DNA of 64,000 nucleotides, taken from Aedoeadaptatus nemausensis. GTDB taxonomy: Bacteria; Bacillota; Clostridia; Tissierellales; Peptoniphilaceae. Below the pieces are notes generated by a model, which was not told where the DNA came from, did no database searches, and saw only the letters and a list, made by a program, of their open reading frames with translations. The DNA is taken from assembly GCF_903819165.1 (NCBI RefSeq), contig NZ_CAIJCS010000008.1, positions 1-64,000 of the forward strand. The letters run 5' to 3'. Position 1 is the stretch's first letter. Each line of letters opens with the position of its first letter. This document shows positions 4,991 through 32,869 of the stretch, piece after piece. Made by a program: the position numbers and the translations under genes.

Positions 4991-7366
4991 CTATCTTAAA
5001 TATGCAATGGTCACGCCGCTGCCACCGTCACCGGGCTCGGCGTCTTCGTATTTTTTTATCGAGGCGTGGGTACGCAAATATTCCTTCACTTTTTTCCGAA
5101 GCATGCCCGTTCCCTTGCCGTGAATAATGCGTATATGGTCGAGAGAAGCCAGATAAGCGTCGTCGAGCGCCTTTTCTAAAATAGGCTCCGCCTCTTCAAA
5201 GGTCTTTCCTCGAATATCAAATTCTACTTTAGCATTTTTTGATTTTTTCTGCGACACTTTTCCCGTATTGGCCTTTTGACGATGATTATCCTGCACCTGC
5301 CGCTTTACCAAAGTATTCGCGGGGAGGGTCATTTTCATAAGGCCCGCCTGAACGAGTACATTGTTCTTTCCGTCGGGTTTTTCCAGGACAGTCGCCTCCA
5401 CTCCCAAACTTTCGGCATACACCGTGTCGCCGGGCTTCAGCTTTTTAGCGGGATTCTTCGCTTTTTTAACCACGAGACCTCTATCGCCGTCGCGGAATTT
5501 CTTATTGCCTTCTCGCAAAACATCTTGCGCTTCCTGAAGGGTCTTTGCTTCATCGCTTTCCAGATGTTGCTTCAATTCCTTGATTTCCGACACGGCGAGA
5601 TCCGCATCTTCTTTCGCCGATTTCAATACGCGGCGCGCTTCGTCGCGAGCTTTTTCTAATATACGATCCCGCTCTTTTTCTATTACTTCCGCCTTGCGCT
5701 TGGCCTGTTGCATTTCCCTTTGATATTCGCCCTTTAGTTGAACGAGCTCCGCTTCCCGCTTTTCAAGACGGCTTCTCTCCGCCTCGAGGGTTTTCAATAC
5801 ATCTTCAAAGGCGATGTCTTTTCGTTCCAAAAAGCCTTCGGCCCCGTTTAAAATTTCGGGAGACAGCCCGAGGCGGGAAGAAATTTCAAATGCATTACTT
5901 TTTCCCGGCACGCCCACATGTAGTTTGTAAGTTGGCGTCAAGGTTTCGATGTCGAATTCCATAGAAGCATTTTGCACGCCGTCTCGTGTCAAAGCGTAGA
6001 GCTTAAGTTGAGTGTAGTGAGTCGTCGCCATAAAGGTAATGCCCGTGGCGATGCAGTGTTCGATAATGCTCAGGGCAAGAGCGGCCCCTTCCGTGGGATC
6101 GGTACCGGCGCCGAGCTCGTCGAAGATTACCAGGCTGTTTTCCCCGGCACGATCCAAGATGTCGATAATGTTCATCATATGGCCGCTGAAAGTAGAAAGG
6201 GATTGCTCGATGCTCTGCTCGTCGCCGATATCGGCGTAGACGCCGTCGTAAATCCCGATGACCGTTCCCTTGTCTGCCGGAATATGAAGACCATGTTGGG
6301 TCATCAATACCATGAGCCCCAAAGTTTTCAAGCTTACGGTTTTACCGCCGGTATTGGGTCCGGTTATAATGAGGCCTCCCGCTTCCCCGCCCAATTCTAA
6401 ACTCAAGGGCACGACTTTGTCCGCCGGAATTAAAGGGTGCCGGGCATTGAGAAGCTTCGTGGTTTTATTTTTCGAGAGTTTCGGTGATATTGCGTTCTGA
6501 TCCGAGGCCAATTTCGCCTTGGCGAAAATAAAGTCCAGATCGGCAAAGAGGATCTCATTGCTCGCAAAGGCCTCCGCATCTTCCCCGATAATGGCGGAAA
6601 GTTCTTCTAAAATTCGCTGGATCTCTTCCCTTTCTTTAAGCTCCAATTCGCGAATATCGTTGTTGATTTCCACGACCGCCATTGGTTCGATATAGACGGT
6701 CTGTCCGGAAGCACTCATGTCGTGAACGAGACCTTTTACTTTACTTCTCGCATCGTGGCGTACGGGCACGACGTAGCGGCCCTGACGCATGGTGACCAGA
6801 GAATCCTGAAGAGATTCCTGTAGATCCGCCGAATTTAAAATACCCTGAAGTTTCTCCCGCACCTGATCTTTCTTCCGCGCGAGGGAGCGACGAATCCGTA
6901 AAAGCTCCGGCGTAGCGTCGTCGTAAATACTCTCTTCACTTTCGATGGTGGACTCGATCCTTTCTCTGAGATCGCCTCGGGTCCAAAGACCGAAGACCAT
7001 TGCGCGAATGAGGGGATAAGGATCTTCCGCCATTTCATCGGTTTCCGCTATATAGCGCTGCATCCTGGAGACGCCGCGAAGGGAATCGCCGATTTCGAGA
7101 ACTTCCGCAATGCTCAGCGTTCCGCCTCGAGAAGCGTAATGGGCGCTTTTCGCCACGGGACGGGCGCCGCTTAATGGCGGAGCGGATCGCGTAACGAGGA
7201 GTTGGAAAGCCTCTTCTGTCTCTTGCTGCATCCGTAGAATTTCTTCTCTATTCGAGGTAAATGCCATAGCATCTACCCGTTCTTTTCCGATGCTCGAAAC
7301 GGTAAGTTCTTTTAATCGGTCGATAATGTCGTAAAATTCAAGAATCGCTTCAATTTTATGCGCCAT
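4991..7366 (-). CDS. mutS2: Endonuclease MutS2 / ribosome-collision rescue ATPase
   Basis: 791 residues, the normal length for MutS2. A MutS-like core carries Walker A GPNTGGKT (336-343) and Walker B VIFDELGAGTDPTEG. A long charged coiled coil spans about 515-640. A KOW-like stretch precedes a C-terminal Smr nuclease domain (about 715-791, FDIRGKTFEEAEPILEKAL, HGKGTGMLRKKV). The family lacks the mismatch-recognition domain. It is linked to suppression of recombination and, in B. subtilis, to splitting collided ribosomes. AGGAGGAGAT precedes the ATG. It lies between the U32 peptidase gene (12-base gap) and argS. Confidence 0.96.
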   Translation of the reverse strand: MAHKIEAILEFYDIIDRLKELTVSSIGKERVDAMAFTSNREEILRMQQETEEAFQLLVTRSAPPLSGARPVAKSAHYASRGGTLSIAEVLEIGDSLRGVSRMQRYIAETDEMAEDPYPLIRAMVFGLWTRGDLRERIESTIESEESIYDDATPELLRIRRSLARKKDQVREKLQGILNSADLQESLQDSLVTMRQGRYVVPVRHDARSKVKGLVHDMSASGQTVYIEPMAVVEINNDIRELELKEREEIQRILEELSAIIGEDAEAFASNEILFADLDFIFAKAKLASDQNAISPKLSKNKTTKLLNARHPLIPADKVVPLSLELGGEAGGLIITGPNTGGKTVSLKTLGLMVLMTQHGLHIPADKGTVIGIYDGVYADIGDEQSIEQSLSTFSGHMMNIIDILDRAGENSLVIFDELGAGTDPTEGAALALSIIEHCIATGITFMATTHYTQLKLYALTRDGVQNASMEFDIETLTPTYKLHVGVPGKSNAFEISSRLGLSPEILNGAEGFLERKDIAFEDVLKTLEAERSRLEKREAELVQLKGEYQREMQQAKRKAEVIEKERDRILEKARDEARRVLKSAKEDADLAVSEIKELKQHLESDEAKTLQEAQDVLREGNKKFRDGDRGLVVKKAKNPAKKLKPGDTVYAESLGVEATVLEKPDGKNNVLVQAGLMKMTLPANTLVKRQVQDNHRQKANTGKVSQKKSKNAKVEFDIRGKTFEEAEPILEKALDDAYLASLDHIRIIHGKGTGMLRKKVKEYLRTHASIKKYEDAEPGDGGSGVTIAYLR

Positions 7367-20086: not shown

Positions 20087-22750
20087 TTATTTATCGATCT
20101 GTGATTGTACGAACGCCATGCGCTCTTGTAAGTTCGAAAGATTATTTTTATGGTTTTGAAGTTTTTCTCTTTCTTTATCTACAACCTCCGGTTTCGCTTT
20201 GTTGACGAAATTTTCGTTGGCAAGTTTTTTATCCGCCCGTTCAATTTCAGATTTCGTCTTCTCGATATCCCGTGCCAAGCGTTCCGCTTCTTTTGCATAA
20301 TCTACAAGATCTTTCATGGGTAGGAAAAGTTCCGCCTTTTCCGTCACGACGGAAATAACATCGTCCGATACGTCTTGGCGATTGTCGATTAGTTCGATTT
20401 CGGTAATATTGGCAAGGTTTACGAAATGACCTTCCATTTCTTTATAAAGAGCCTTTCGATCCTCGTCGCCCGTTAAAACGTAGAGCTTGCTCTTGCGATG
20501 GGGCTCGATGTCCATTTCAGCCTTGGCGTTGCGGATGCCGCGAATGGCTTCCCGAACCACCGCAATACTTTGAACATCTTGGTCAAAGGCATAGACGCCG
20601 GATTCGGGCCACTGGGCGCTGATTAATTCCCCTTCGGTGCCGGGAAGGAAGGAATAAATCTCTTCCGTAATGAAGGGCATAAAGGGATGAAGCATAATAA
20701 GGATCTTTTCGAGCACATCGAGGAGAACCCCATAGACCACTTCCCTGTCATCGATATCGTCGCCGTAAAGGCGGGGTTTTACCATCTCAATATACCAGTC
20801 GCAGTATTCGTCCCAAATAAAATCGTGGACCGCTTCGGCGGCGAGGCCGATGTCGTATTTTTCGATCTTCGCCTCCACATCGGCTACAGTTTCATCGAGA
20901 CGGGTTAAGATCCAACGATCTTCGCCTCGAAGTTTATCTTTTTGTACCTTGGAATATTTGAAGTCTTCGGGGAGATTCATGAGCACAAAGCGGGATGCAT
21001 TCCATAGCTTATTGCAGAAATTACGGTTGTTTTCCACACGTTTATAGCTGAAGCGCATATCATTGCCCGGCGTGGTGCCCGTCACGAGGGTAAAGCGCAA
21101 AGCGTCGGCGCCGTACTCGGCGATAACATCCAAGGGGTCGATACCGTTGCCTAAGCTCTTGCTCATTTTGCGGCCCTGTTCATCGCGAACGAGGCCCGTC
21201 AAATAAACATCCGTGAAGGGAAGTTCGTCCGTAAGTTCGAGGGCGGAGAAGACCATGCGGATGACCCAGAAGAAAATAATATCGTAGCCCGTGACGAGAA
21301 CGTCAGTGGGATAGTAGTATTTTAAATCTTCCGTGTTTTCGGGCCAGCCCATAGTGGAGAAAGCCCAAAGAGCGGAACTGAACCAGGTGTCCAGGGTATC
21401 CTCGTCTTGGCGTATATTATGGCTGTGGCAAGAGGTACACTCTTCTACATTCTCTCTCGATACTATGACCTCGCCGCAATCGTCGCAGTAATAGACGGGC
21501 AGGCGATGGCCCCACCAAAGTTGTCTGGAAATGCACCAGTCGCGGATATTTTCGAGCCAGTGGGTGTAGATCTTGCCGAAGCGATCGGGCACAAAGTGGA
21601 GATCGCCCTTTTTATAGGCTTCCAGGGCGGGTTTCGCCAGTTTTTCCATGGCGACAAACCACTGATTGCTGAGCATAGGCTCGATAACGGTCTTACAGCG
21701 CTCGCAGTGGCCGACGGCGTGGTGATGATCTTCGATTTTTACGAGATAACCCTCGGCATCCATATCGGCGACGATGGCTTTTCGAGCTTCCGAGCGTTCC
21801 ATTCCCGCGTATTTCCCTGCGTTTTCATTAAGGTGCGCCGTTTCGTCCATAATGAGGAACTGACCTAAATCGTGACGCTCCCCGACGCCGAAGTCGTTAG
21901 GGTCGTGGGACGGGGTAATTTTAACCGCGCCCGTACCGAATTCGGAATCGACATAATCGTCGGCGACGATGGGGATCGTACGATCGAACAAAGGCAGGTG
22001 GACGTGCTTGCCGACCAAATCTTTATAGCGATCGTCTTCCGGATTGACGGCCACCGCCAAGTCCCCGGGAATGGTCTCCGGACGGGTAGTGGAAATTAAA
22101 ATCTCTCCCTCTTCCCCTTCGATGGGATAGCGGAAAGTCCACATTTTGCCGTCTTCATCCTCGTGTTCCACTTCCGCGTCGGATAGGGCAGTCTTGTCGT
22201 GGGGACACCAGTTGATAATGCGATTGCCTCTGTAAATTAAATCTTTTTCATAGAGGCGGAAGAAAAATTCTTCGACGGCTTTCGAAAGACCTTCATCTAA
22301 TGTGAAGCGATCTCTGGACCAGTCGCAGGACACGCCCAGCTTTTTCAACTGATTCTTAATATTGCCGCCGTATTCTTCCGTCCATGCCCACGCTTCTTCC
22401 AGAAACTTTTCACGTCCCAGACTTTCCTTTGTCTTTCCCTGTTCGCGAAGACGTTCCACAACTTTTACTTCCGTGGAGATCGACGCGTGGTCGGTGCCGG
22501 GAATCCAAAGGGCACTGTAACCTTTCAGGCGCTTAAAGCGAATTAAAATATCCTGCAACGTATTGTTCATGGCGTGGCCCATGTGGAGATTACCCGTTAC
22601 ATTTGGCGGCGGCATGACGATGGTAAAGGTTTTTTTGCCTTCTGCCTGATCTTTTTCTCTGTCCGGTGTAAAGGCGCCGTGATCCATCCACGCCTTATAA
22701 ATTCTCTCTTCAAAATCTTTCGGATCATATGTTTTTTGCATATCGTTCAT
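20087..22750 (-). CDS. valS: Valine--tRNA ligase
   Basis: 887 residues, class I. The HIGH-type motif is in PPPNVTGNLHMGHAM and the KMSKS motif in GRKMSKSLGNGIDP. The CP1 editing domain (STTRPETIPGDLAVAVNPED) and a C-terminal coiled-coil arm (AERLARDIEKTKSEIERADKKLA) are present. A CERCKTV / CDDCGEV ... CTSC set suggests zinc binding in inserted regions. I chose the ATG at 22750 because AGGAGG lies four bases upstream. Expression is under a T-box leader. Confidence 0.97.
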   Translation of the reverse strand: MNDMQKTYDPKDFEERIYKAWMDHGAFTPDREKDQAEGKKTFTIVMPPPNVTGNLHMGHAMNNTLQDILIRFKRLKGYSALWIPGTDHASISTEVKVVERLREQGKTKESLGREKFLEEAWAWTEEYGGNIKNQLKKLGVSCDWSRDRFTLDEGLSKAVEEFFFRLYEKDLIYRGNRIINWCPHDKTALSDAEVEHEDEDGKMWTFRYPIEGEEGEILISTTRPETIPGDLAVAVNPEDDRYKDLVGKHVHLPLFDRTIPIVADDYVDSEFGTGAVKITPSHDPNDFGVGERHDLGQFLIMDETAHLNENAGKYAGMERSEARKAIVADMDAEGYLVKIEDHHHAVGHCERCKTVIEPMLSNQWFVAMEKLAKPALEAYKKGDLHFVPDRFGKIYTHWLENIRDWCISRQLWWGHRLPVYYCDDCGEVIVSRENVEECTSCHSHNIRQDEDTLDTWFSSALWAFSTMGWPENTEDLKYYYPTDVLVTGYDIIFFWVIRMVFSALELTDELPFTDVYLTGLVRDEQGRKMSKSLGNGIDPLDVIAEYGADALRFTLVTGTTPGNDMRFSYKRVENNRNFCNKLWNASRFVLMNLPEDFKYSKVQKDKLRGEDRWILTRLDETVADVEAKIEKYDIGLAAEAVHDFIWDEYCDWYIEMVKPRLYGDDIDDREVVYGVLLDVLEKILIMLHPFMPFITEEIYSFLPGTEGELISAQWPESGVYAFDQDVQSIAVVREAIRGIRNAKAEMDIEPHRKSKLYVLTGDEDRKALYKEMEGHFVNLANITEIELIDNRQDVSDDVISVVTEKAELFLPMKDLVDYAKEAERLARDIEKTKSEIERADKKLANENFVNKAKPEVVDKEREKLQNHKNNLSNLQERMAFVQSQIDK

Positions 22751-22766
22751 AAATCCTCCTCTCAAT

Positions 22767-22960
22767 AGAAAAAACCCCATCCTTAAAAGGACGGGGTTTC
22801 CGCGGTACCACCTTTGTTCCGCAAAATGCGGCGCTCAAACTCTATAACGGCGAGTACCGTTGCCTTCGCAAATGTCGTAAGGGCGACCTTCAGTCGTTTT
22901 CGCAATTGCTCACACCACACGCAATCTCTCTTGAGCGAAAATGGGACCTACTCCTCCCCT
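22767..22960 (-). promoter_or_regulatory. T-box leader (tRNA-Val sensing) of valS
   Basis: The conserved T-box AAAGGTGGTACCGCG is at 22801-22815 on the minus strand. It is followed by a terminator stem ACCCCGTCC / GGATGGGGT with six T residues (22769-22799). Upstream is stem I with AGTA, AGAGAG and GTGTGAG-type motifs. A candidate specifier codon GTC (Val), preceded by GAAG, is at 22885-22887. Uncharged tRNA-Val would stabilise the antiterminator. Confidence 0.9.
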
Positions 22961-22977
22961 ACCAAATAGTTACATTC

Positions 22978-28953: not shown

Positions 28954-30291
28954 TCACTGTAACTGATCTTTAAGATTCAGCATCATAAGTGTCGCTTCCT
29001 CTCGACTCGCCGTTCCCTTGGGATCGAAGATTCCGCCGCTGCGTCCGTGTAAAATTTTTCGAGCCGTTAAACCCGCCACGGCTTTACGGTGCACGGGATG
29101 AATCTTGTCTCGATCTTTAAAGGGAAGTCGAGCCCCGGAATCGTCGTATTTCATGGCGACGTAGACGATGCGGGCCATTTCTTCTCGTGTAATGAGCTGA
29201 TCCGGTCGGAAGCTGCCGTCGCCGTATCCGTCGATAAGGCCCGCCCTTTTCGCCGCAACTATGGCGTTTTTGTAATAGACCTCATCCGAAATATCGTCAA
29301 ATCCCGTATCTCCGTCGACCAAGGGAAGCTTCATAGCGAGGGCCATCAAGAGAGTAAACTCTCCTCGGCTCATAGCCTCTCTCCCCTGGAAACTGGTAAG
29401 GTTTCTGTAAGCCGCCGTATTCATTCCCTCACGGTCCGCTAGGGCAGGCACCTTATTCGCCCAATTAGAGGTGGAATAAAAGCTCATAGCATAATTTAAA
29501 ATCGCCATGGTGTCGTGGTAGCGTCGATCCTTCCCCGTGGATCCCATGACAACGGAAATCAATCGGCGTCCCTTTTTCGTGTAGGTCGCCGTCAGGCATT
29601 GCCCTGCATAAGATGCCGTGCCCGTTTTAAATCCGTTGATCCCTTTGAAATATCGAAAATCTCTATAAAACTTATTAGTGGAGCGATACACCTGCTCTTT
29701 ATAGAGCGTCTCGTGCTTGGAGGTCGTATTCAAAATGTCCGGATAATCGTGAATTATGGCGCGAGTTAAAAGAGCCTGGGCCCGAGGCGTGACGCGATTG
29801 GGCTTGAGCCCGTTGGCCTCTGTATAGCGGGCGTCAATGCCGAGATCTCTCGCTTTTTCATTCATCCTTTCTGCAAAAACCGCTTCAGAACCGCCTCCCA
29901 AGTATTCCGCCATAGCGATTCCCATCTGATTATTGCTTCTAATAAGATAAGGCTCGAACAAGTCGCCCAGTCGTTCCTCGTCGGAAAAATTTGTTTTATC
30001 CCAGGGAGATTTGTTGCGAGCATTTTCGGAAATGGGAATTAGGGTATCCCAGCTTATTTCGCCGGACTTGATACTGTCTAAAATTAAATAGGCGGTCATG
30101 ACCTTGGTCATGGACGCTGCCGAAAAAACTTTATCTGCATTTTTTTCGTAAAGTACTTGCCCCGTATCGTAATCCATAACGATAGCACCGCGGGCGCTGA
30201 TCTGCGGCTCTTTCTCTGCAAAGGCCGTCGCCGGCGTCAGCAAGATGATAAAGGCGAGGAAAAAAGCCACAAACTGATTTGATCGTTTCAT
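28954..30291 (-). CDS. dacF: D-alanyl-D-alanine carboxypeptidase with C-terminal SLH repeats
   Basis: 445 residues. A signal peptide (about 1-26, ending TAFA/EK) is followed by a class A low-molecular-weight penicillin-binding protein fold: S60-M-T-K63 with catalytic serine, S119-N-N121 and K222-T-G224. It trims the terminal D-Ala of peptidoglycan peptides. Instead of the usual amphipathic anchor, residues ~305-445 hold S-layer homology repeats (AIVAAKRAGLIDGYGDGSFRPDQLITREEMARI; AVAGLTARKILHGRSGGIFDPKGTASREEA). AAAGGAGAATGA precedes the ATG. The symbol follows the catalytic family. Confidence 0.9.
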   Translation of the reverse strand: MKRSNQFVAFFLAFIILLTPATAFAEKEPQISARGAIVMDYDTGQVLYEKNADKVFSAASMTKVMTAYLILDSIKSGEISWDTLIPISENARNKSPWDKTNFSDEERLGDLFEPYLIRSNNQMGIAMAEYLGGGSEAVFAERMNEKARDLGIDARYTEANGLKPNRVTPRAQALLTRAIIHDYPDILNTTSKHETLYKEQVYRSTNKFYRDFRYFKGINGFKTGTASYAGQCLTATYTKKGRRLISVVMGSTGKDRRYHDTMAILNYAMSFYSTSNWANKVPALADREGMNTAAYRNLTSFQGREAMSRGEFTLLMALAMKLPLVDGDTGFDDISDEVYYKNAIVAAKRAGLIDGYGDGSFRPDQLITREEMARIVYVAMKYDDSGARLPFKDRDKIHPVHRKAVAGLTARKILHGRSGGIFDPKGTASREEATLMMLNLKDQLQ

Positions 30292-30337: not shown

Positions 30338-30367
30338 GAAAAATCCCCGCAGTTTTCCGCGGGGATC
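30338..30367 (-). terminator. Terminator after the SLH-glutaredoxin gene
   Basis: ATCCCCGC / GCGGGGAT with a GGAAAACT loop and a T tract on the minus strand. Confidence 0.85.
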
Positions 30368-30373
30368 CTCTTA

Positions 30374-31318
30374 TTATTCCTGTTCAAAAACACTCATAAG
30401 CTTAAAGGGGCTAAAGCCTTCCAGCACTACATCGTCCACTTCGATCATGGGGACGGAGTGATAGCCTTTCGATTGAAATTCTTCCAAGGCCTTTTCATCG
30501 GTTTCTACGTTTTTTTCTACATAAGATGTTTTCAGAGTGTCAGTTAAAAATACCTTCGCCATATTGCAGTAACGGCAATCGTCGCGGGTATAGATAACGA
30601 CCTTACGCTCCTTGCGTGCAGGGGGCGTATAATCGTTGGCCGCTTTTGTAATTCTCGCCATTTCGCTTCTGCGAATGGGGCGATCTCCTTCAAATTTTCC
30701 GTCGCTTCCCTCCGGCGCGAGAACATTAATCTTAACGAGAGCCGCCACATATTCCGCCACGGGAACCGGCTGATCGAACTGATCGCCAATAGTACCCAGT
30801 GAATCCAGGTCGGCCAGCTTCAAGATGCTGAGATCTCCATTGCGGGGCACGCGAAGGGCCCGAGCATAATAGGATGCGATTTCCCGTCTCGTCGGGTAAC
30901 TCTTTCTCGGACGCTCGAAGGCTCCTGCCTTGCCCGCATCCATTATTTGCTTCTCCGTAATGACACGTTGTTCCAAAGCATAGGCTGCCGCTTCATAAGC
31001 CCAATCCTCGACACCGGCGCGGCGTGCCATATTTCCGTAGGAAAGGACGGCTTGACGCAACTCCGCTTTCGTCGGATTCTTGATTCCCTTGATTAGGGAG
31101 AAAGTTTCGGACAGGGATACCGGATCATTCGGTTTAAAAGTCCCGTCGGGGAATCCCTTTAATACGCCGGCGGAGCTCAACTCTTCAATATAGGGACGGG
31201 CCCAGTGAGTGTCCGAAACATCAGTGAAAGACGATGCATAGGCGATTTGTGTTAGACCGGTTGCGAGAGCTAAAGCACAAAGTGCAATGCCTGACAATTT
31301 ATTTTTCTTCATGTTCAT
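30374..31318 (-). CDS. Secreted SLH-domain protein with C-terminal glutaredoxin domain
   Basis: 314 residues. A signal peptide runs about 1-28 (ends AYA/SS). SLH repeat 1 spans about 31-75 (FTDVSDTHWARPYIEELSSAGVLKGFPDGTFKPN). Two degenerate SLH-like repeats follow at ~100-150 and ~185-228 (ending RPIRRSEMARI). Residues ~237-312 form a glutaredoxin-like thioredoxin fold: VVIYTRDDCRYCNMAK with C248-R-Y-C251, cis-proline at V289-P290, and a GF near 301. The enzyme would act in thiol-disulfide exchange outside the membrane. No other SLH-glutaredoxin fusion comes to mind. The start overlaps capA by 20 bases; an ATG at 31312 also fits the GGAAGGGA site. Confidence 0.85.
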   Translation of the reverse strand: MNMKKNKLSGIALCALALATGLTQIAYASSFTDVSDTHWARPYIEELSSAGVLKGFPDGTFKPNDPVSLSETFSLIKGIKNPTKAELRQAVLSYGNMARRAGVEDWAYEAAAYALEQRVITEKQIMDAGKAGAFERPRKSYPTRREIASYYARALRVPRNGDLSILKLADLDSLGTIGDQFDQPVPVAEYVAALVKINVLAPEGSDGKFEGDRPIRRSEMARITKAANDYTPPARKERKVVIYTRDDCRYCNMAKVFLTDTLKTSYVEKNVETDEKALEEFQSKGYHSVPMIEVDDVVLEGFSPFKLMSVFEQE

Positions 31319-32456
31319 TCCCTTCCTTTTTCATTTGAATGACTAAATTCGGATCTACACGCTTTCCGTGTTCCTCTTCCGCCGCTTCTAAACGGCCGCG
31401 AACAGATTCCATTCGCTCTACGGGTATCTCTCCCGTAAGAGCTTCTCGCACGGGGATAACTTCAAAGTGAAGACCGCCTGCACTGTATTTATCTACATAG
31501 GTCGCTAAAGGTTCGAAGCTTTCCACGCGCGTTCCCTTTTCGTCCTTTACAATGGATGCGCGTACCATTTGTCCCGTCTCCACATCGCGGCGGTTCATGT
31601 ATTCCCGCCTTTGATTGGAAACGAAATTTCCCATGGAATAGGCGACAAAGGTCTTACCCTCATCAGTCAACAGATTGTCTACTCCCTGAGGAACGTGGGG
31701 GTGAGATCCCAGTATAAGGGACACGCCGCGATCGGCTAAAAAACGAGCCTGAGCTTTTTGCTGATCCGTAGGCTCCTTGCGATACTCTTCACCCCAGTGT
31801 ATAAAACAAATTATAGCATCTACGCCGTTTTCTTTTAAGTAGCGAATATCATTTTCCGCCTTCTCTTCGGAAAAAATATTCACGGCGAAAGGCTTGTCGC
31901 TGTTTCTTAAAATATCATCGAATCCGTTGAGCCCGTAAGTATAACAGATAAAACCCAACTTCATTCCGTTGACCTCTTTTATTAAAGGCGGCGCATCTTC
32001 TACCTGAGTGCCCATTACATCGAGACCGGCTTCTTTTAAATAGTTGTATGTGCTTTCCACCCCGGGGCCTAGTTTATCGTAACTGTGATTATTGGCGGTG
32101 GAGATAATATGGAATCCGACTTCTTTAAAATCGCGGGCCACTTCTTTTGGAGAAGAAAATACAGGATAGGTTGTATAGCCCTTTGAACCGTCCGTAAGTG
32201 TGGTTTCCAGATTGATCATGGCGATATCCGCTTCCTGAATATAAGGTGTTAGATAGCGAAATATGGGCTTAAAATCGTATCCCTCGCCGGATTGCGCCGC
32301 GCGGAGCTGAGGTCTGTGTAGCATGAAATCGCCGAATGCCACAATCTCCACACGTTTCGGCGGTTCCGGTTCCGGCTTTTGCGGTGGTGTTTGATCTAAA
32401 GTTGCGCAACCCGTTAATACGGAGATCAGCCCCAAGGTAATGAGTATTTTTTTCAT
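31299..32456 (-). CDS. CapA-family lipoprotein (PGA capsule-type metallophosphatase fold)
   Basis: 385 residues. A lipoprotein signal ends at LTG-C17. A proline-rich linker (PPQKPEPEPPKR) precedes the CapA domain (IVAFGDFMLHRPQLR, MINLETTLTD, STANNHSYDKLGPGV, CFIHWGEEYRKEPTDQQKAQARFLAD, LGSHPHVPQG). CapA proteins take part in poly-gamma-glutamate capsule work or act as surface phosphodiesterase-like enzymes; no capBC genes are near, so a capsule is not implied. AAAGGAGCGTAAG precedes the ATG. Only 24 bases separate it from the rnpB terminator. Confidence 0.88.
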   Translation of the reverse strand: MKKILITLGLISVLTGCATLDQTPPQKPEPEPPKRVEIVAFGDFMLHRPQLRAAQSGEGYDFKPIFRYLTPYIQEADIAMINLETTLTDGSKGYTTYPVFSSPKEVARDFKEVGFHIISTANNHSYDKLGPGVESTYNYLKEAGLDVMGTQVEDAPPLIKEVNGMKLGFICYTYGLNGFDDILRNSDKPFAVNIFSEEKAENDIRYLKENGVDAIICFIHWGEEYRKEPTDQQKAQARFLADRGVSLILGSHPHVPQGVDNLLTDEGKTFVAYSMGNFVSNQRREYMNRRDVETGQMVRASIVKDEKGTRVESFEPLATYVDKYSAGGLHFEVIPVREALTGEIPVERMESVRGRLEAAEEEHGKRVDPNLVIQMKKEGNEHEEK

Positions 32457-32480
32457 CTTACGCTCCTTTGAAGTATGTAC

Positions 32481-32504
32481 AAAAAAAGCGGAGAAACCTC
32501 CGCT
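32481..32504 (-). terminator. Terminator after rnpB
   Basis: AGCGGAG / CTCCGCT with a four-base loop and seven T residues on the minus strand. Confidence 0.85.
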
Positions 32505-32506
32505 CT

Positions 32507-32836
32507 TGTCGACTACGTCTATAAGCCGTGTTTTGTATTCGTTAACTATCTGTCTGGTCCTTCCGTCACCGGAAGGCTCTAGCGACCTACCTAACCGGAG
32601 GCGACGAGTAATCGCCTTTAATCCACTTCGGTCTTGCTTCGAATGGGGTTTACATAGCCGTATAGTCGCCTATACGCTGGTGAGCTCTTACCTCACCTTT
32701 CCACCCTTACCTTTGCAGGCGGTATATCTCTGTTGCACTAGCCTTGGGGTCGCCCCCACCGGACGTTATCCGGCATCCTTACTCTGTGAAGCACGGACTT
32801 TCCTCGCATACGCGCAGTTAACCGACGTACTCGACT
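32507..32836 (-). ncRNA. rnpB: RNase P RNA
   Basis: Conserved RNase P blocks are read on the minus strand: GAGGAAAGTCCGTGCTT near the 5' end, AGGGTGGAAAGGTGAGGTAAGAG in the middle, and GACAGATAGTTAAC and ACAAAACACGGCTTATAG near the 3' end. P1 is formed by 12-base arms at 32824-32835 and 32508-32519 with one mismatch. It is the catalytic RNA that trims tRNA 5' leaders. It has its own promoter and terminator. Ends are estimated within a few bases. Confidence 0.95.
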
Positions 32837-32840
32837 TCTT

Positions 32841-32869
32841 ATTTTACCATAGGATTCTTTAAATATCAA
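32841..32869 (-). promoter_or_regulatory. Promoter of rnpB
   Basis: On the minus strand TTGATA (32864-32869), a 17-base spacer and TAAAAT (32841-32846). The -35 lies inside the last codons of the nif3-like gene. Confidence 0.75.

Follow-up and report, generated by a model that had tools for sequence, protein, structure and literature searches.

A predicted SLH-anchored architecture carrying a glutaredoxin domain, encoded beside capA in Aedoeadaptatus genomes

Seven of the eight Aedoeadaptatus genomes in our genus set (G000–G007, G000 being the source genome of the window, i.e., of the whole 64,000-nucleotide stretch of DNA analysed here) encode a full-length protein in which a putative signal peptide and a predicted SLH trimer are followed by a predicted glutaredoxin fold, in a gene located directly downstream of capA; G007 is the genome that does not have it. 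Glutaredoxins are thiol-handling enzymes that are normally intracellular, and, to our knowledge, little is known of the thiol chemistry that takes place outside the membrane of Gram-positive anaerobes. What the protein does we infer tentatively, with slightly less than even confidence: as a wall-anchored enzyme, it would reduce thiols or carry out repair, and the CapA-like lipoprotein would be its lead client. A conserved, putatively wall-anchored glutaredoxin is found in a genus where the standard electron conduit was not detected, and both a candidate client cysteine and a candidate electron source can be named, which makes extracytoplasmic thiol management in such cells directly testable. 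New here are a NapH–TlpA pair in genomes where neither DsbD/CcdA nor exported DsbA was found, a CapA cysteine (C217) that tracks the fusion, and a recombination event confined to the glutaredoxin domain in one species pair.

The reading frame lies exactly where the earlier note had placed it, on the minus strand, which that note had not given. Its features are as follows.

30374–31318, minus strand: CDS of the SLH–glutaredoxin fusion, 314 aa (ORF list, Pfam, and homologues)
31235–31318, minus strand: putative signal peptide, residues 1–28 (translation inspected; presumed cleavage after AYA)
30620–31234, minus strand: predicted SLH module of three repeats, residues 29–233 (Pfam SLH; model compared with 3pyw and 6bt4)
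30383–30604, minus strand: predicted glutaredoxin domain (NrdH/YruB-like), residues 239–312 (PF00462; model compared with 7c10 and 4hs1)
30566–30577, minus strand: active-site motif C248-R-Y-C251 (sequence; both Cys invariant in 7/7)

There is a single ATG start candidate, with AGGAAGGGA ahead of it. The putative signal peptide, recognised by inspection, reads MNMKKNKLSGIALCALALATGLTQIAYA, with cleavage then SS, and Ala28 is invariant in the seven aligned fusion proteins. Pfam detected SLH in two stretches (E-value 1.2e-17, 64 bits for a cut-off of 20.8) and Glutaredoxin at residues 240–297 (E-value 7.9e-10, 39.2 bits for a cut-off of 22.9), and found neither a TlpA/ResA-like (Redoxin) domain nor a DSBA domain (PF01323) in the protein. 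The TRRE and RRSE stretches resemble the TRAE motif. The exported, SLH-anchored architecture proposed in the earlier note is supported by the pyruvyl transferase family PF04230 (CsaB family), present once per genome in all eight genomes of the genus: the fusion would be secreted by Sec, and its SLH trimer would hold it on the pyruvylated secondary cell-wall polymer.

The fusion was modelled with AlphaFold from an input of 43 rows (7 fusions, 30 N-terminal SLH modules, and 6 stand-alone glutaredoxins), which gave a mean pLDDT of 92.1 and 10-residue means of 93 or more over residues 241–310. This run replaced a 7-row run whose SLH part was poor (mean pLDDT 56.7), good modelling being limited to the C-terminal domain and a portion of the SLH region. 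The model was compared with solved structures, also by Foldseek. Residues 29–233 matched the Sap SLH trimer 3pyw (Z 18.8, rmsd 2.8, 177 residues aligned of 178), as well as two complexes with pyruvylated polymer, 6bt4 (Z 17.5) and 7sv5 (Z 16.9); on this model, the SLH module looks complete, with three repeats that are not degenerate, and the description of one SLH repeat plus two degenerate ones given in the earlier note does not hold for the structure. Its other half fared better, since residues 237–312 matched the dithiol cGrx1 7c10 (Z 14.2, rmsd 1.1) and the NrdH structures 4hs1 (Z 12.9) and 1h75 (Z 12.4), in agreement with the complete glutaredoxin fold that had been claimed at the C-terminus, and the refuting result named in that note, a C-terminal region that does not fold in a thioredoxin-like way, did not arise; C248-R-Y-C251 and Pro290 had also been placed correctly, and Cys248, Cys251, and Pro290 are invariant across the seven aligned homologues, the window protein included.

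Like Sap of Bacillus anthracis and SpaA, both SLH-anchored, the fusion has a putative signal peptide (by inspection) and a predicted N-terminal SLH trimer, with the structural matches given above and a gene family for polymer pyruvylation in the genome; unlike them, its cargo is a small thiol oxidoreductase. Pfam found no glutaredoxin-type domain in 14 scanned SLH proteins encoded by this genome, nor in the neighbouring SLH carboxypeptidase described below; the Pfam domains of these 14 proteins are subtilase, LRR, CAP, 5'-nucleotidase, Ig-like, and similar ones, and no cysteine enzyme family was detected among them by Pfam, so that the idea of a Cys-dependent SLH enzyme as client was dropped.

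Among NCBIfam models, the best scores of the fusion were those of the YruB family (TIGR02196, 53.9 bits, below the cut-off of 88.55) and then NrdH (TIGR02194, 49.6 bits, below 85.75), and the Glutaredoxin 3 equivalog (TIGR02181) reached 37.7 bits, below its cut-off of 90. By inspection, the C-terminal stretch reads EGFSPFKL, VGYKPDEI, or similar in the seven homologues, and its GFSPFKL/GYKPDEI part resembles the NrdH motif. Glutaredoxins of the NrdH/YruB type are reduced by protein partners and not by glutathione, and the glutathione-dependent ones carry a glutathione-binding C-terminal stretch of the GG-D-D type. The nearest solved structures to the domain are YruB/NrdH-type glutaredoxins and cGrx1, with which it shares the fold, the CxxC, the cis-proline, and a GF-type C-terminal stretch. 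It differs from YruB/NrdH in being, as predicted, exported and wall-anchored, in its CRYC, CNYC, CKYC, or CRFC motif, in forming a separate branch, and in scoring below the NCBIfam cut-offs.

The six other fusion proteins are 48–87% identical to that of the window, the value of 87% being for A. coxii DNF00729 (G001, L038); the window comes from a near relative of A. coxii within Aedoeadaptatus. We searched 130 genomes of the family Peptoniphilaceae (including the eight of the genus), scoring at most the best 17 candidates per genome, and there was no further uninterrupted match over both halves among the matches listed. Matches in G072, G142, and G095 that begin close to the end of SLH and reach the glutaredoxin part cross stop codons and were excluded from the fusion count. 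In a class sample of 391 genomes drawn evenly, some of them from the same family, at most the best five candidates per genome were scored, and a spanning match in G350 (model positions 4–295) turned out to be a 463-aa SLH protein with zero Cys. Five named loci with mostly long query coverage (L100, L059, L092, L049, and L103) were also discarded, their ORF being without CxxC. A glutaredoxin-family search of the 130 family genomes listed frames of at most 159 aa, except the G004 fusion (319 aa), and, among 80 named loci, a glutaredoxin match falls inside an SLH ORF in A. coxii L038 only. In a phage collection, 66 records matched, none over at least 80% of the query, and the 20 matches listed covered either the SLH part or the glutaredoxin part, never both; in a viral collection, five loci matched, all by the SLH part alone. 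The architecture is, thus, not common, which would have been a refuting result for the earlier note, being present in 7/8 genomes of the genus and nowhere else among the matches listed. In the rest of the family, the SLH half is found at the N-terminal end of proteins measuring around 650 aa or 330–400 aa, and also by itself, at 231–237 aa. In three genomes of genus g51, we observed a stand-alone SLH module with no apparent cargo (L169 3259–3972, L170 2982–3695, and L171 448–1143). Both halves are of known kinds; the SLH–glutaredoxin combination was not found in the CC-licensed PMC papers that were searched.

The fused glutaredoxin domains form a single branch (seven rows, support 100/100) with respect to 33 stand-alone rows, in a tree of 75 columns only whose deep forks are weak; judging from these alignments, this is consistent with a single origin of the fusion. 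The residue pair between the active-site cysteines is RY, NY, NY, RF, KY, KY, and KY in the seven fusions. Among 36 stand-alone rows (two of which repeat a locus and one more a sequence), 29 read CPYC and the other seven CPHC, CVFC, CRYC, CQYC, or CPFC, so that a position without proline (CVFC, CRYC, or CQYC) is also found outside the fusion. With CRYC, CNYC, CKYC, or CRFC in place of CPYC, the redox potential may be moved up or down, a reservation about the reading as a reductase. NG86 dN/dS values of the glutaredoxin part, which are rough as dS exceeds 1 in three of the pairs, were 0.064, 0.164, 0.133, and 0.225 in four of five pairs, the fifth being undefined by saturation; those of the SLH part were 0.033, 0.165, 0.307, and 0.119. 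As far as these ratios tell, the fusion is under purifying selection, and full-length homologues in 7/8 genomes together with the low glutaredoxin values in four of five pairs argue that it is more than a chance junction.

In 150-column windows over the locus, identity between G006 and G004 is 81–98%, but it falls to 68% in the glutaredoxin part, in which G006 shares 83% identity with G002 and G005. Out of 503 informative sites, 370 agree with G004 and the other 133 with G002/G005; in a single run of 41 sites, corresponding to codons 235–303, 38 agree with G002/G005, and 0 of 20,000 shuffles gave a segment as strong. The glutaredoxin head was, thus, exchanged at the domain boundary, or nearly so (L125 of G004, 6673–6877, and the matching stretch of L127 of G006). 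In the close species pair G004/G006, the glutaredoxin domain alone was exchanged by recombination, in one direction or the other.

The neighbourhood of the gene in the window comprises the following features.

31299–32456, minus strand: CDS of a CapA-like (PGA_cap) lipoprotein, 385 aa (PF09587, 8.9e-66; lipobox Cys17 by inspection)
31806–31808, minus strand: CapA Cys217 codon (the conserved HWG begins three residues further on)
30339–30366, minus strand: terminator-like hairpin with T-run, 3' of the fusion gene (inspection)
28954–30291, minus strand: CDS of an SLH-carrying D-alanyl-D-alanine carboxypeptidase (PF00768, 8e-54; SLH, 8.3e-22)
32506–32833, minus strand: rnpB (class A RNase P RNA, 263.5 bits), flanked by capA and NIF3

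Coupling of the fusion to a CapA lipoprotein, which the earlier note had seen in the window, extends to all seven fusion loci when synteny is compared: capA is directly upstream in 7/7, overlapping the fusion gene by 20 nt in G000 (the window) and G001 and by 4 nt in G002 and G005, or separated from it by 1 nt in G003 and 2 nt in G004 and G006 (fusion starts in G002 and G006 being set at 314 aa). To judge by this spacing, the fusion is translationally coupled to capA in 7/7. The carboxypeptidase mentioned in the same note is indeed adjacent and SLH-carrying, but a hairpin lies between the two genes, and, although it follows the fusion in 6/7 loci, it is not beside it in G003, so that it is probably a mere neighbour, independent of the fusion. 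Similar hairpins were seen by inspection after several fusion homologues. Ahead of the fusion in the window are dnaG and rpoD (both identified by inspection), then trmK, NIF3, rnpB, and capA, and G007 retains the dnaG-to-capA stretch without a fusion there. A 140-aa plus-strand ORF (32440–32862) over rnpB is probably a shadow and no gene.

The case for CapA as lead client comes from its Cys217, which is Cys in the 7/7 genomes with the fusion and in 0/16 of those aligned without it, where S, A, L, or V is found, in a 23-row alignment of match ranges and not of whole proteins (G116, which has no CapA match, was excluded). Among 307 scored columns, C217 and Q236 are the only ones fixed in and private to the seven fusion genomes. 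C217 lies three residues before the H of HWG (20/23 rows; HFG, HYG, or HGG in the others) and is the sole Cys of the mature part conserved in all seven. Compared with G007 alone, CapA has 22 contrasting columns, one of which is a Cys, plus one where G007 has Cys; the neighbours NIF3, TrmK, RpoD, and DnaG have 95 such columns and 0 Cys. By sequence, the nearest solved relative of CapA is the "poly-gamma-glutamate synthesis protein" 8gq9, a weak match (E-value 0.0016 at best). The C217 pattern fits a client relationship, but a coincidence within one lineage may also explain it: the gain of C217 and that of the fusion may have been single events on the same branch, so that the match effectively amounts to one coincidence, the chance of which we estimate at about 1% (twice the CapA Cys fraction of 0.0048), CapA being one of three Cys-bearing surface proteins examined for a Cys tracking the fusion. 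Another of them, C111 of an SLH paralogue, occurs in all five of the fused genomes that were compared, but not in G007 (six genus genomes; G001 and G006 excluded), and was rejected as fusion-specific, as it also occurs in five paralogues of other genera. Cys232 of the carboxypeptidase is present in the 6/6 fused genomes that have this neighbour, a comparison made within fused genomes only. One has to keep in mind that the SLH proteins of this genome are Cys-poor, with 33 Cys in 14,403 aa (0.229%; 17 proteins beyond residue 35, fusion counted) vs. 0.919% in 44 other window ORFs of more than 180 aa, mechanically chosen; 15 of the 17 have 0–3 Cys and the other two 6 and 10, which leaves few clients for a wall-anchored reductase.

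The earlier note had reasoned that a glutaredoxin outside the membrane needs another electron source or else acts as an oxidase or isomerase, and the problem it raised is supported, as the usual conduits were not found. DsbD/CcdA (PF02683) was found in 0/8 genomes of the genus and in 3/21 of the genomes tested, by a profile that matches in 10/14 controls, and no exported DsbA was found in the genus: the search for PF01323 gave nothing in 6/8 genomes and no match above the cut-off in G000–G006. A match below the cut-off in G003 falls on its small glutaredoxin, and that of G007, above the cut-off, is a FrnE-like protein in which inspection shows no signal peptide, so that it does not count as an exported DsbA. 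In all eight genomes, a NapH-like Fe-S membrane protein (Fer4_5, 295–333 aa, 18–20 Cys) adjoins a TlpA/ResA-like protein in which a lipobox is seen on inspection; the pair was identified by domain scan in G000 and G005 and by sequence similarity and position in the other genomes (L250 3914–5405 in G000; counterparts in L272, L273, L274, L254, L253, L275, and L276). In G004, the TlpA-like lipoprotein gene is apparently present twice in tandem. We regard this pair as a candidate electron route for the fusion, against which stand its presence in the fusion-less G007 and, in G000, its location on another contig than the fusion.

In the mechanism that we propose, the fusion is an exported dithiol oxidoreductase of the cell wall, and its NrdH/YruB-like domain would keep extracytoplasmic thiols reduced or repair oxidised ones outside the membrane, with the upstream-encoded CapA-like lipoprotein, whose Cys217 beside HWG is found only alongside the fusion, as its lead client. 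Electrons would arrive through the NapH-like iron-sulfur protein and the neighbouring TlpA/ResA-like lipoprotein and not through CcdA/DsbD, or else directly from environmental thiols (cysteine, sulfide, or host glutathione). The nearest working analogue is the pneumococcal Etrx1/Etrx2–CcdA–MsrAB2 system, in which TlpA-like lipoproteins are fed by CcdA and which likewise has a thioredoxin-fold oxidoreductase outside a Gram-positive membrane (PMC3914529). It differs from the present case, where a glutaredoxin domain would sit on an SLH anchor and DsbD/CcdA is found in 0/8 genomes of the genus. Eser et al. (2009) reportedly exported Glutaredoxin 3 to the E. coli periplasm by engineering. Periplasmic Glutaredoxin 3, as cited in PMC12453122, is also a glutaredoxin acting outside the cytoplasm, but a soluble and glutathione-linked one, unlike the fusion, which is natural and, as predicted, anchored.

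Other roles were weighed against that of reductase or repair enzyme. An extracellular glutaredoxin could instead work as an oxidase or isomerase that makes disulfides with environmental glutathione disulfide or cystine, replacing the missing exported DsbA, a role that we consider possible though unlikely; the dithiol CxxC and the lack of any PF01323 protein above the cut-off in G000–G006 speak for it, as does periplasmic Glutaredoxin 3 of E. coli, cited in PMC12453122 as forming disulfides with glutathione. On the other hand, 15 of the 17 SLH proteins have 0–3 Cys and, hence, few disulfides to form, and C217 is the one Cys of the mature part of CapA that all seven conserve. Neither was the glutathione-binding GG-D-D type of C-terminus seen by inspection, and the fusion-less G007 is also without a detected exported DsbA, so that neither protein seems needed. 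A relay that copes with external oxidants by passing electrons to a peroxiredoxin or methionine sulfoxide reductase outside the cell, as in pneumococcal Etrx–MsrAB2, is quite improbable in our opinion: surface thioredoxin lipoproteins do so in Streptococcus pneumoniae (PMC3914529), and AhpC-TSA-family and MsrB genes are present in the 8/8 genomes, but an exported MsrAB fusion would be longer than the MsrB frames (146–173 aa), the AhpC ORF of G000 shows no signal peptide on inspection and is next to an AhpF-like reductase, and, among the annotated ORFs of the seven loci, none immediately flanking the fusion was recognised as an Msr or peroxidase gene.

The domain could also be non-catalytic and serve a structural surface protein as a passive binder of thiols or metals, or as a redox sensor. 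That modules like the SLH half are widespread in the family on other surface proteins, and that the inter-Cys pair differs from PY in 7/7, would fit; both Cys, the cis-proline, and the glutaredoxin fold are, however, retained under purifying selection, and the domain alone was exchanged between lineages with its active site kept, all of which makes us rate this role as no less doubtful than the relay. As for an annotation or assembly chimera, or a protein staying in the cytoplasm, we give it hardly any credence: the signal peptide was recognised by inspection, no other supporting point was found, and the same fusion occurs in seven different genomes, A. coxii DNF00729 included, with the divergence given above. 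Starting from the reductase or repair enzyme that we prefer, one could go as far as imagining an undescribed cell-wall redox circuit, independent of CcdA/DsbD and fed by Fe-S (NapH-like and TlpA-like proteins), ending in an SLH-anchored glutaredoxin that would switch or protect a newly acquired Cys beside the CapA active site and whose head would be exchanged between species as a cassette; taken as a whole, this picture is rather improbable.

Two further observations were made along the way. MsrB (PF01641) lies about 2.3–5.5 kb from a stand-alone glutaredoxin in 7/8 genomes (G001–G007), for example at G006:C1:94615 and G006:C1:97238, and on a different contig from it in G000. The window also contains a T-box leader upstream of a large tRNA-synthetase-like ORF (20087–22780, named by inspection).

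22784–22970, minus strand: T-box leader (95.2 bits for a gathering score of 93)
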